DNA from: Weizmannia acidilactici | GTDB lineage: Bacteria; Bacillota; Bacilli; Bacillales; Bacillaceae_C | NCBI RefSeq assembly: GCF_008974185.1 | Contig: NZ_BKZP01000007.1 | Location: forward strand, 1 to 64,000 | Length of the DNA: 64,000 nt | Reading direction: 5' to 3' | Part shown: positions 1 to 20,859 of the stretch, in pieces | Layout: every line of letters starts with the position of its first letter | Position numbering within the stretch: position 1 is the stretch's first letter | The notes under the pieces: model-generated | Databases searched by the model: none | What the model was told of the DNA's origin: nothing | Seen by the model: only the letters and a program-made list of their open reading frames with translations | Translations under genes and position numbers: made by a program

Positions 1-125
1 GAGGTTTGCCGCTCGCTTCCTTCAGATCCCGCATCACTACGGACACCCTTGCGTTAGGCTATCGCTACTACTGCCTTCGCGATTCGGGACTTTCACCCTA
101 TAGAGTGCAGCCATGCCAGGTGCAC
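1..125 (-). mobile_element. Group II intron, class IIC (5' end only; continues past the window edge)
   Basis: Read on the minus strand from 125, the sequence begins GTGCACCTGGCATGG and continues with TATAGGGTGAAAGTCCCGAA, then GCCTAACGCAAGGGTGTCC and ATCTGAAGGAAGC. This closely tracks domain I of the Oceanobacillus iheyensis class IIC intron ribozyme, recalled from memory, starting with the conserved 5' GUG. The intron lies just downstream of the sspA terminator hairpin, in the same orientation. Class IIC introns are known to insert directly after intrinsic terminators. The reverse transcriptase and 3' end would lie left of position 1 and cannot be assessed. Confidence 0.88.
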
Positions 126-6491: not shown

Positions 6492-8364
6492 ACTCATTTG
6501 CTTTGATTTGCGTATTGCTGATCACAACCTGGTTTTTCCCTAAATTTTTGGCATGGTATAAACCGGCATCCGCCCTGTTAAAAAGGGATTCAGCCGTTTC
6601 GTTCATTTCTTTGTTCCAGTACGAAACACCGCAAGAAACGGTGATCGGCGGGTTTGTATTTTTCTCCACAGCTGTAAGTAATCTTTTTGCGACCTGTTCG
6701 CCCGTTTCAAGCGGCACACCGGGGAGGTAAATGGCCAATTCCTCTCCTCCCCACCTTGCGCCGACATCTGTTGAACGGATATTTTCTTTAATCAAACGGG
6801 CAACTTGAACCAAAATTTCATCCCCCACCTGGTGACCATATGTATCATTCACTTTTTTAAAATCGTCAATGTCCAACAAAATCAATGTACCCTGCTCATC
6901 TTCTCTAATTGATTCCTCCATCCTGCTGTTCAAATAATTTTTGGCAAACAGTTGTGTAAGTTGATCCGTGATTACCATCTTTTCCAGCCGCTCACGGAGC
7001 ATCGAATTCGTTAAAGCCATGCCCGACTGGTAAATCAAAGATTGAAAGAGTTTGAACATATCAAAAGAAAAATGGTACGGTTCCTCGTGGAGGACGATGC
7101 AGAATCCTTTTAATGCATCTTCCTGGATCAACGGGACGGCCATCAGCGAAGCAAAACGGTACCCTCTTTCGGGATAGCGCCGGTTTAAATTGCTGATAAA
7201 CAATGATTCCTTATTGTTGTCGGAAAAGGATTGGTTGACAAAGTCAATATAACGGATGCCCTCATTTTGTTCGAAGACAGGGCTGCTGCCCTCAAGCAGG
7301 TGGTACTTCCCGTCCTGGATCATGATAAAGCCGATTTCTTTCGCATCAAACGAGCAGGAGATTTGCGACATTAAAAAATCAACCGTTTCTTTTACATTCG
7401 TGCTTTTATTTAACTGCTGAGAAACCGAATTGATGAGACGGAGTTCTTCAATGGACTGCATCGACTGCTGGTACAACTTGGCATTTTCGAGTGCACTGCC
7501 CGCCGTATTCGCCAACAGGCTGATAAATTCGACATCGCTGCGGTTAAATTCATAGTTGGCAAACGCGATGACTTGCAAAACGCCATATACCCCCTGCCTC
7601 CCTCGAAGCGGGGCATACAGCAGCGTCTGGTTCGTACGCCACAAAGTTGCAATCTGGATCTGGCCGTTCACATACGAATCAAGCGCCATATCGTCGATTG
7701 CATCGTACTGGAGCGATTTGATCGGCAAATCCACATTATGATGATCATCATCAGACAGCATTAAGGAATATTCAAAAACCGGGTACACCCTTTGGAGCGT
7801 ATAAATGATTTCTGCTAGGATAGTGTCTGTATCCATGGAAGAGTGGAATTTCTCGGTCACTTGAAATAATTCAATATAACGTTTCCGGTCGCTTTCCACA
7901 ACAGATAACTCATATTTCAACTTCAAAAATTTCCGGCTCTCCCGGACGAATGCCTGCAGATCCGCGTTTGACAGCGTTTCTAAAATCTTCTTTGGAATAG
8001 AAAGAAAAAGGCAGCCGTCCTCCATCTCTTTATCCGGAATGGAAAAGGCAATATTAAACTGTGAAAAGTAAGGATCTTTTTGCAATTCCCTGCTAAAGAC
8101 GATCGGGGATTTCCCTGTCAAAGCTTTTATTTTCCCAGATGGCAGGCTTGTTTTGACGGGTTGCTGGTAAGGGTTGTAAAAACCGCTGATTTTATAACAT
8201 TTTGTATTTTCGGTGTCCTGTTTATAATATGCAATCTTTTCCGCGTTTAAACAGTCGGCCACAACCCCCACCCATTCATCCAAGCTGCTGCCCTCCTGCA
8301 AATTCATTAAATCCAATAAACGGGACTTGTAATATAGGATCAAATGACTGAAATTCTTTTCCAT
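6490..8364 (-). CDS. dgcP: Diguanylate cyclase DgcP with GAF domains
   Basis: This 624-residue protein synthesises cyclic di-GMP from two GTP. The N-terminal 440 residues hold GAF-like sensory regions, and the C-terminal 170 residues form a GGDEF domain with IDDFKKVNDTYGHQVGD and the active-site loop RWGGEELAIY (GGEEL variant of GGDEF, normally active). No membrane segment is evident, so it is cytosolic. The position between ytsP and rpsD matches YtrP/DgcP of B. subtilis. The start ATG 8364 follows AAGGTG. Confidence 0.9.
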   Translation of the reverse strand: MEKNFSHLILYYKSRLLDLMNLQEGSSLDEWVGVVADCLNAEKIAYYKQDTENTKCYKISGFYNPYQQPVKTSLPSGKIKALTGKSPIVFSRELQKDPYFSQFNIAFSIPDKEMEDGCLFLSIPKKILETLSNADLQAFVRESRKFLKLKYELSVVESDRKRYIELFQVTEKFHSSMDTDTILAEIIYTLQRVYPVFEYSLMLSDDDHHNVDLPIKSLQYDAIDDMALDSYVNGQIQIATLWRTNQTLLYAPLRGRQGVYGVLQVIAFANYEFNRSDVEFISLLANTAGSALENAKLYQQSMQSIEELRLINSVSQQLNKSTNVKETVDFLMSQISCSFDAKEIGFIMIQDGKYHLLEGSSPVFEQNEGIRYIDFVNQSFSDNNKESLFISNLNRRYPERGYRFASLMAVPLIQEDALKGFCIVLHEEPYHFSFDMFKLFQSLIYQSGMALTNSMLRERLEKMVITDQLTQLFAKNYLNSRMEESIREDEQGTLILLDIDDFKKVNDTYGHQVGDEILVQVARLIKENIRSTDVGARWGGEELAIYLPGVPLETGEQVAKRLLTAVEKNTNPPITVSCGVSYWNKEMNETAESLFNRADAGLYHAKNLGKNQVVISNTQIKANE

Positions 8365-10083: not shown

Positions 10084-11121
10084 TTAAAGCTCGTCAAACC
10101 CGTTCAAATCGCTTACTTTTGTGTACTGGCGCGATTTTTGTTCAAAAAAATCGGTTTTTGTGCCGTCAAAATTGTCAAGATAGGCGCGGATCCACTTCAT
10201 CGGGTTCCGGACATTTTCCGGATAGATTTCACTTAAGCCGATCATGCGCAGCATTTTGTTTGCCCGATATTGTATAAAACCGGCCATTTCCTCCAAATCG
10301 ATCCCCTCTACATCAGAAAGGACATACTGCGACCATTCCGTTTCCAGTTCGACCGACCGCTTGAATTGGGCATACACCCAATTTGCAAACCCCTCCGTAT
10401 TCAATTCCGGATTTTCCGCCAATGCCGCGCGGATCAGTTCCGACACAAACCGGCCATGTTCCAGCTCGTCCCGATTGATGTAGCTGATCATCGTTGAGGT
10501 GCCGACCATTTTATTTTGGCGCGCCAAGTTATAAAAGAATGCAAAACCGGAGTAAAAGAACAACCCCTCCAACAAGGTCGAGTACACTAGCGTTTTCAGG
10601 ATGTTTTCGACGGACGGCTCTTTTACAAACCGGTTATATTGCTCCATTAATGCCCGGTTCCGTTTCAGCAGCACGGGATTTGTCCTGCCGATCTCAAATG
10701 CATTGTTCTGTTTTTCCAATGAAACAACAGAAGATAAAATATAGGAATAGCTCTCATTATGGACCGCTTCTTGCTGGGCGATAACAGCCAGGATCGACTG
10801 CACGGACGGATCCGCGGCATAAAGCGACAGAAGCAGCATCGTCCTTGTCTGCGAGGAATCGAGCGTCGCCAGCAGGCTGATGATTTTCAGGAAAGTTTCC
10901 TGTTCCCACTTCGATAACTCCGGAAATTGTTTGATATCCGAGGACATATTGATTTCATCAGACTGCCAGTAATTTCCAAGCAGCCGTTTGTACATTTTAT
11001 ACCAGTGGGGATACGGGAGGTCATTCCAATTGAGTATCCCGCTTGATTTCCCGCCGAAAAGCGCGGTCGCTTTATTTGAATACATGGGCTCTAATGTCTT
11101 CACTTTTTCCTGCAAAAGCAT
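10084..11121 (-). CDS. Ribonucleotide reductase class I beta subunit (NrdB/NrdF type)
   Basis: The beta subunit holds the di-metal cofactor and stable radical that drives reduction of ribonucleotides by the alpha subunit. The metal ligand pattern is complete: D in SSDIKQF, QEAVHNESYSYI (E, H and the radical Tyr four residues after H), E in LLEGLFFYSGF, and E and H in INRDELEH. So this is not a metal-free class Ie variant. Start ATG 11121 follows GGAAGGAG by 9 bases and overlaps the flavodoxin gene by 50 bp, suggesting coupled translation. The protein is 345 residues. I cannot separate subclass Ia from Ib by eye. Confidence 0.92.
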   Translation of the reverse strand: MLLQEKVKTLEPMYSNKATALFGGKSSGILNWNDLPYPHWYKMYKRLLGNYWQSDEINMSSDIKQFPELSKWEQETFLKIISLLATLDSSQTRTMLLLSLYAADPSVQSILAVIAQQEAVHNESYSYILSSVVSLEKQNNAFEIGRTNPVLLKRNRALMEQYNRFVKEPSVENILKTLVYSTLLEGLFFYSGFAFFYNLARQNKMVGTSTMISYINRDELEHGRFVSELIRAALAENPELNTEGFANWVYAQFKRSVELETEWSQYVLSDVEGIDLEEMAGFIQYRANKMLRMIGLSEIYPENVRNPMKWIRAYLDNFDGTKTDFFEQKSRQYTKVSDLNGFDEL

Positions 11122-13767: not shown

Positions 13768-13791
13768 GTTTTTCCTCCTTTTTTGAACCAT

Positions 13792-13821
13792 AAAAAAACC
13801 GTCCACCCCGGGGATGAACGG
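13792..13821 (-). terminator. Riboswitch-controlled terminator in the nrd leader
   Basis: On the minus strand CCGTTCATCCCC pairs with GGGGTGGACGG and is followed by TTTTTTT. It lies between the cobalamin aptamer and the alpha-subunit start codon, where an attenuator would sit. Confidence 0.85.
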
Positions 13822-13904
13822 CGAAACCGACAGAAAAACTGCAATATGTATCCATGTTTTCCAATCGTTTCACCTTCCCACACCCCGGAGAATGGAAACT
13901 TCAA

Positions 13905-14083
13905 GCTATGGCAGGTCTCCTGGCTTGTGTATCATCCTACTAAAGCCCTTCCCATACCGCCGCCATGAAGCAGGGGGTACAGTGGATTTGCTCGTTCGTC
14001 CACACTTACAGTTGCGGGGGCAGCTCCAGCTTTCAACTGGATTCCCTTTTAAGGCATTGCAAAAAATGCCACCATCGCCTGAT
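13905..14083 (-). promoter_or_regulatory. Cobalamin riboswitch upstream of ribonucleotide reductase
   Basis: Minus-strand reading shows the cobalamin aptamer hallmarks in order: a GGTGGC-type 5' arm, GGGAA, the B12-box core AGCTGCCCCCGCAACTGTA, CCACTG, GGTATGGGAAGG, and the 3' arm GCCAGGAGACCTGCC. A terminator lies about 85 nt downstream. The arrangement predicts that adenosylcobalamin stops transcription of this B12-independent reductase. B12 riboswitches over class Ia reductase operons are known in Streptomyces. Exact ends were not folded. Confidence 0.93.
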
Positions 14084-14131
14084 ATACCATATTTAGTGTT
14101 TTAATAGCATTAATAATACTACATATTGTTA
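14084..14131 (-). promoter_or_regulatory. Paired NrdR-like boxes at the nrd promoter
   Basis: Two 16-bp boxes, TAACAATATGTAGTAT (14116-14131) and ACACTAAATATGGTAT (14084-14099), match the NrdR consensus acaCwAtATaTwgtgt at 12 and 13 positions. They lie 32 bp start to start, about three helical turns. A possible promoter TTGCTA-18 bp-TAGTAT (14116-14145) overlaps the first box. NrdR normally represses reductase operons through such pairs. Confidence 0.68.
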
Positions 14132-14226: not shown

Positions 14227-14697
14227 TTAATAATTGATTTTTATATAAGTATGTTCCCATTCTTCAAATGGAAGCGTGCGGTCCGGGATGTCAACTCGGT
14301 TAAAGCGGATCGCGCGGGCACCGTGGTCTTTTGTAATTTCTTCATAAATAAAAGCATCATCAAATCCCGCATTTGCCGCATCCTTTTGATCGGCGGCAAA
14401 ATAAACTTCTTTCGGCCTCGCCCAGTAGATTGCGCCCAAACACATCGGGCACGGCTCGCAGCTTGAATAAAGGATACAATCGGCAAGCTGGAAAGTTCCA
14501 AGATTTTGGCAAGCATCCCGTATCGCCTGAACTTCCGCGTGGGCAGTCGGATCATTGTTTTTCGTAACGCTGTTTTTTCCGATCCCTACAATTTCACCGT
14601 TTCCATTTACAACAATGGCGGCAAACGGCCCGCCCCCATTTTCGATATTTTCCCTTGCCATTTCAATCGTTACCTTTAAAAAATACGCATGATTCAT
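14227..14697 (-). CDS. guaD: Guanine deaminase
   Basis: GuaD hydrolyses guanine to xanthine in purine salvage. The 156-residue length equals the B. subtilis enzyme, as recalled. The cytidine-deaminase-fold zinc site is complete: DPTAHAEV (His ligand and catalytic Glu) and SCEPCPMCLGAIYWARP (two Cys ligands), followed by AGFDDAFIY, typical of GuaD rather than TadA. Start ATG 14697 was chosen because AAGGGGGG lies upstream at a workable distance; the ATG two codons earlier abuts it. It has its own promoter and terminator. Confidence 0.93.
   Translation of the reverse strand: MNHAYFLKVTIEMARENIENGGGPFAAIVVNGNGEIVGIGKNSVTKNNDPTAHAEVQAIRDACQNLGTFQLADCILYSSCEPCPMCLGAIYWARPKEVYFAADQKDAANAGFDDAFIYEEITKDHGARAIRFNRVDIPDRTLPFEEWEHTYIKINY

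Positions 14698-19326: not shown

Positions 19327-20859
<1,533 letters not shown>

Follow-up and report, generated by a model that had tools for sequence, protein, structure and literature searches.

A predicted B12-OFF riboswitch ahead of the class I ribonucleotide reductase genes of Weizmannia acidilactici, which also carries nrdJ

The class I ribonucleotide reductase (RNR) operon of Weizmannia acidilactici very probably lies under a transcriptional riboswitch that shuts off this B12-independent enzyme in the presence of B12; the same genome also encodes the B12-dependent enzyme NrdJ. The operon is located in a 64,000-nt stretch of the genome (contig NZ_BKZP01000007.1, positions 1 to 64,000), here referred to as the window. 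By computation, we found a complete aptamer, an intrinsic terminator, two alternative pairings with their conservation, the nrdJ gene, and an association of riboswitch and nrdJ across genomes; ligand binding by this RNA and termination in vivo are what we infer.

The sequence-only reading had proposed a cobalamin aptamer followed by a strong intrinsic terminator at 13792-14083, ahead of an operon for an RNR alpha subunit, a flavodoxin, and a beta subunit. An Rfam scan of the whole window bears this out, with a full-length RF00174 match whose score is identical when the entire genome is searched and exceeds that of every relative examined. The terminator is likewise present, and all three genes lie directly downstream and match curated models (Table 1). 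The extent needs a small amendment: the 5′ end of the aptamer is 8 bases further out than proposed, at 14091. The window additionally contains a T-box leader at 20636-20841 (-) (RF00230, 126.4 bits) and, cut by the window edge, a match to group II intron D1-D4-3 at 1-43 (-) (32.9 bits versus a gathering threshold of 32).

Table 1. Elements of the nrd leader and operon, in window coordinates
Feature	Position	Strand	Evidence or remark
Candidate NrdR box 1 TAACAATATGTAGTAT	14116..14131	-	20/24 versus NrdR consensus
Candidate NrdR box 2 ACACTAAATATGGTAT	14084..14099	-	32 nt downstream of box 1
Cobalamin riboswitch aptamer	13893..14091	-	RF00174, complete (model 1-189/189), 125.7 bits versus gathering threshold 31.5, E 3.6e-31
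P5/L5 GCTGCCCCCGC, proposed L13 kissing partner	14014..14024	-	CCCC/GGGG conservation
P13 hairpin, L13 loop CCGGGG at 13883-13888	13867..13899	-	helices with 94% and 88% of cells paired, 25 leaders
Antiterminator 3′ strand CTGTCGGTTTCGCCGTTCATCCCC, partner 13862-13888	13810..13833	-	minimum-energy fold; 89% of cells paired, 25 leaders
Intrinsic terminator hairpin, 11 pairs	13798..13822	-	followed by T run 13791-13797
Ribosome-binding site GGAGG	13774..13778	-	sequence; precedes alpha ATG 13767
Class I RNR alpha, 744 aa	11533..13767	-	NF006665 1292 bits versus cut-off 1057; PF02867, PF00317
RNR-associated flavodoxin, 160 aa	11072..11554	-	TIGR01754 flav_RNR 175.5 bits versus cut-off 163.8
Class I RNR beta, 345 aa from ATG	10084..11121	-	NF007184 422.9 bits versus cut-off 310

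Cobalamin aptamers are known to form a kissing loop between L5 and L13. Here, the CCCC of L5 is complementary to the GGGG of L13, and both motifs are retained in the window and in nearly all of the relatives' leaders; by analogy, the window aptamer would make the same contact. The P4 loop TTGAAAG was also considered as the partner of L13 and was dropped, because the CCCC loop is exactly complementary to the GGGG. As for the ligand, RF00174 covers aptamers of differing selectivity, which is not safely readable from the score, and another form such as methyl- or hydroxocobalamin would leave the circuit otherwise unchanged. We nevertheless consider such a ligand unlikely, as NrdJ uses adenosylcobalamin and a cobalamin adenosyltransferase gene is present in the genome.

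The B12 itself is probably imported from outside. A genome search for a single marker of B12 synthesis, CbiC, found none, suggesting that de novo corrin synthesis is absent, and a second riboswitch, matching the AdoCbl family RF01482 with 98 bits, stands ahead of three genes whose products are a repeat protein, a DUF4430 protein, and the substrate component of an ECF transporter (L007 4319-7216), a locus whose gene content suggests a B12 importer. Comparable pairs of a small secreted protein and an ECF component follow riboswitches in two further sequences, L102 and L103.

The operon belongs to class I, with both alpha and beta scoring above the curated cut-offs; the best solved relative of the beta subunit is 2rcc. 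Scores with the class Ib models for NrdE and NrdF stay below the cut-offs (TIGR04170, 383 bits versus 750; TIGR04171, 162 versus 355), and the flavodoxin reaches only 21.5 versus a cut-off of 27 with the NrdI Pfam model, matching TIGR01754 instead. The closest relatives of the alpha subunit come from Heyndrickxia acidiproducens (83%) and H. coagulans (81-82%). For the start of alpha, the ORF list gives GTG 13806; with a GGAGG ahead of it, ATG 13767 is most likely the true start codon, which would place the terminator entirely within the untranslated leader. On the upstream side, between the end of a same-strand deaminase gene at 14227 and the nrd leader, there is a terminator-like hairpin (14202-14175), and the nrd operon therefore probably has its own promoter; the sigma-70 promoter match in this region is no better than chance.

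A terminator-like hairpin was seen in 34/34 riboswitch leaders examined. For five of these (L009, L012, L021, L042, and L052), a hairpin inside the antiterminator had been taken as the terminator, and the alignment places the real one further on. In the aligned leaders, 6 of the 11 terminator pairs vary on both sides. In the ligand-free minimum-energy fold of the window leader, the linker 3′ of the aptamer and the terminator's 5′ arm pair to form a long antiterminator, which is mutually exclusive with P13 because both use the same GAAAC segment.

Both alternatives were scored on 25 aligned leaders against 500 shuffles; ten riboswitch leaders lie outside this alignment, mainly those with poorly aligning linkers. 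P13 plus terminator had 91.2% of cells paired and 9 pairs varying on both sides (shuffled mean, 4.5), a number reached in none of the 500 shuffles; nor did any shuffle attain its covariation score of 0.294 (versus 0.231). The antiterminator had 88.9% of cells paired (0/500 shuffles), with 94% in its core helix, as compared to only 46-66% for slid versions. Its covariation of 0.231 versus 0.209 was matched in 9/500 shuffles, and its 4 double-change pairs are within the shuffled range (117/500 shuffles reach 4), which is why support for the antiterminator comes mainly from the percentage paired and the slide control. Taken together, the presence of a terminator and a mutually exclusive antiterminator supports the assignment of the leader, from its predicted anatomy, as a B12-OFF transcription switch.

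It is very unlikely that the riboswitch acts chiefly on translation initiation, with the 13798-13822 hairpin playing a minor part. While P13-type switches often target the ribosome-binding site, and the terminator does end near that site at 13774-13778, the site itself lies outside both P13 and the antiterminator. Moreover, all riboswitch leaders examined contain a hairpin followed by a T run, and its stem shows compensatory changes.

The sequence-only reading had further argued that a genome with such a switch should also encode the class II enzyme NrdJ, and a genome search located nrdJ on contig C40. The assembly (123 contigs, 3.19 Mb, completeness rating 100%) was covered by family searches and by a few selected stretches; it contains two RNR large subunits, the window alpha and the one on C40, and the search found no class III NrdD. 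With NF005991, the model for vitamin B12-dependent ribonucleotide reductase, the score is 1174 bits for exon 2 of nrdJ alone (cut-off 854) and 488 bits for exon 1, such that the genome pairs the B12-independent isozyme with a B12-dependent one. Between the two exons, a 390-nt group I intron (RF00028, 75.2 bits; L006 13909-14298 on C40) interrupts the gene after GGSR; T is the last base of the upstream exon and G that of the intron, and with the intron removed the frame would read GGSR-RGAQ. Production of NrdJ would thus depend on splicing. In the closest Heyndrickxia relatives, nrdJ is uninterrupted.

Group I introns also interrupt nrdJ in L057, L059, L077, L080, L082, L084-L086, L088, and L090, and across this genome and many relatives there are up to three insertion sites, one following GGSR and two close to residues 224 and 395 of exon 2. 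Group I introns are common in RNR genes, RNRdb listing more than 100 (PMC2795772). One might speculate that, with class I shut off by B12, DNA synthesis comes to depend on self-splicing of the nrdJ intron, so that a riboswitch and a ribozyme in series would govern deoxyribonucleotide supply, and that the intron may itself be regulated; we regard this as very unlikely. As a separate observation, sequence L006 also harbors a glycine riboswitch (7157-7245, RF00504, 68 bits).

Does the riboswitch travel with nrdJ? We surveyed 43 relatives with the same operon and searchable genomes. A riboswitch precedes alpha in 35 of them, including L014, where only the 3′ part is left at a contig end and was recognized by eye, and L036, which was scored as AdoCbl-II; nrdJ is present in 35/35. 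The eight relatives lacking the riboswitch comprise three without nrdJ (G008, G009, and G015) and five in which nrdJ is present without a recognizable operon riboswitch (G017, G036, G038, G039, and G040), such that the link is not strict. Fisher's exact test gives p = 0.0045, or 0.005 without L014 and L036, values that are uncorrected for kinship, with G008 and G009 looking closely related.

All three nrdJ-less genomes carry cobalamin riboswitches elsewhere, and the absence of the riboswitch is therefore specific to the nrd operon. In G015, a fragment corresponding to residues 769-852 of NrdJ is still present and has the look of a remnant. In L094 (1849-3192), from a relative without an intact nrdJ, a cobalamin riboswitch precedes what we judge from its sequence to be an acyl-CoA dehydrogenase-like gene. 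A permissive Rfam search of the eight riboswitch-lacking relatives returned no cobalamin match. A profile of the intact leaders matched L025 weakly (E = 0.00023) and L047 marginally (E = 0.04), the best shuffled control having E = 1.7. These aptamer matches, which look like eroded remnants, are both in Oceanobacillus relatives that have kept nrdJ and lie ∼240-360 nt upstream of the start of the alpha match. Loss or erosion of the nrd aptamer thus seems to have occurred in some Oceanobacillus relatives.

Upstream of the window operon, the tandem pair of NrdR-like boxes scores 40, as compared to a maximum of 37 in 300 shuffles. Such pairs, spaced by 30-32 nt, occur ahead of most of the relatives' operons, with or without a riboswitch; the genome's own nrdJ is preceded by a pair with 33-nt spacing, and a gene for NrdR is present in the genome. 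Although NrdR boxes at both kinds of operon and the apparent aptamer loss in Oceanobacillus might point to a nonfunctional relic, with the operon under NrdR alone, this is extremely unlikely given a window aptamer that outscores all relatives examined and an expression platform that folds well and is conserved.

For a functional transcriptional switch, we propose the following sequence of events. Without adenosylcobalamin, the linker, consisting of L13 and GGTGAAACGA, would pair with the downstream GTTTCGCCGTTCATCCCC, and the resulting antiterminator would hide the 5′ arm of the terminator, allowing the operon to be transcribed. Upon cobalamin binding, P13 would form, with GTTTC pairing to GAAAC, and its loop CCGGGG would dock on the CCCC of L5; the antiterminator would be lost, the terminator would form, and transcription would stop before alpha. 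NrdJ would then supply deoxyribonucleotides, while NrdR would probably act at the promoters of both nrd loci as a further level of regulation.

These results confirm a prediction, made from the sequence only, that nrdJ must exist, and they provide a multi-genome test of the rule that places B12-independent isozymes under B12 riboswitches alongside a B12-dependent partner. For a group of Bacillaceae to which the industrial species Heyndrickxia coagulans belongs, they also describe a conserved and readable switching mechanism built on L13 and the shared GAAAC segment. The nrdJ introns, in turn, illustrate that RNA splicing is often required for the B12-dependent partner.

Streptomyces, like the bacterium studied here, also has a class II RNR. 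In Streptomyces coelicolor, a B12 riboswitch is reported to have been demonstrated experimentally for nrdABS, which encodes a class Ia RNR (PMC4342826 and PMC5962746, citing Borovok et al. 2006); there too the riboswitch resides in a class I RNR leader, but the host is an actinobacterium and the third gene is a different one. Closer to the window, RNA-seq of Bacillus methanolicus MGA3 placed an AdoCbl riboswitch within the nrdAB 5′ UTR (PMC4342826), ahead of class I RNR genes in a Bacillus relative; the main text of that paper does not mention nrdJ. In Priestia megaterium, whose cobalamin riboswitches include those of metE and nrdEF, a B12-independent RNR is under riboswitch control with NrdJ in the genome (PMC8390425), as here. 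P. megaterium differs in making its own B12 and in having eight cobalamin riboswitches, as compared to two, and no CbiC found, in the W. acidilactici genome. Such isozymes are listed as a category of regulated genes (PMC3766115). The general rule cited in PMC2211319, by which the B12-independent isozyme is under a B12 element where both isozymes exist, has the same logic as the prediction of nrdJ; the present case extends it by one lineage and by a test, with exceptions, in 43 genomes. A B12 riboswitch over a class I RNR is already known, and the window carries a further example.
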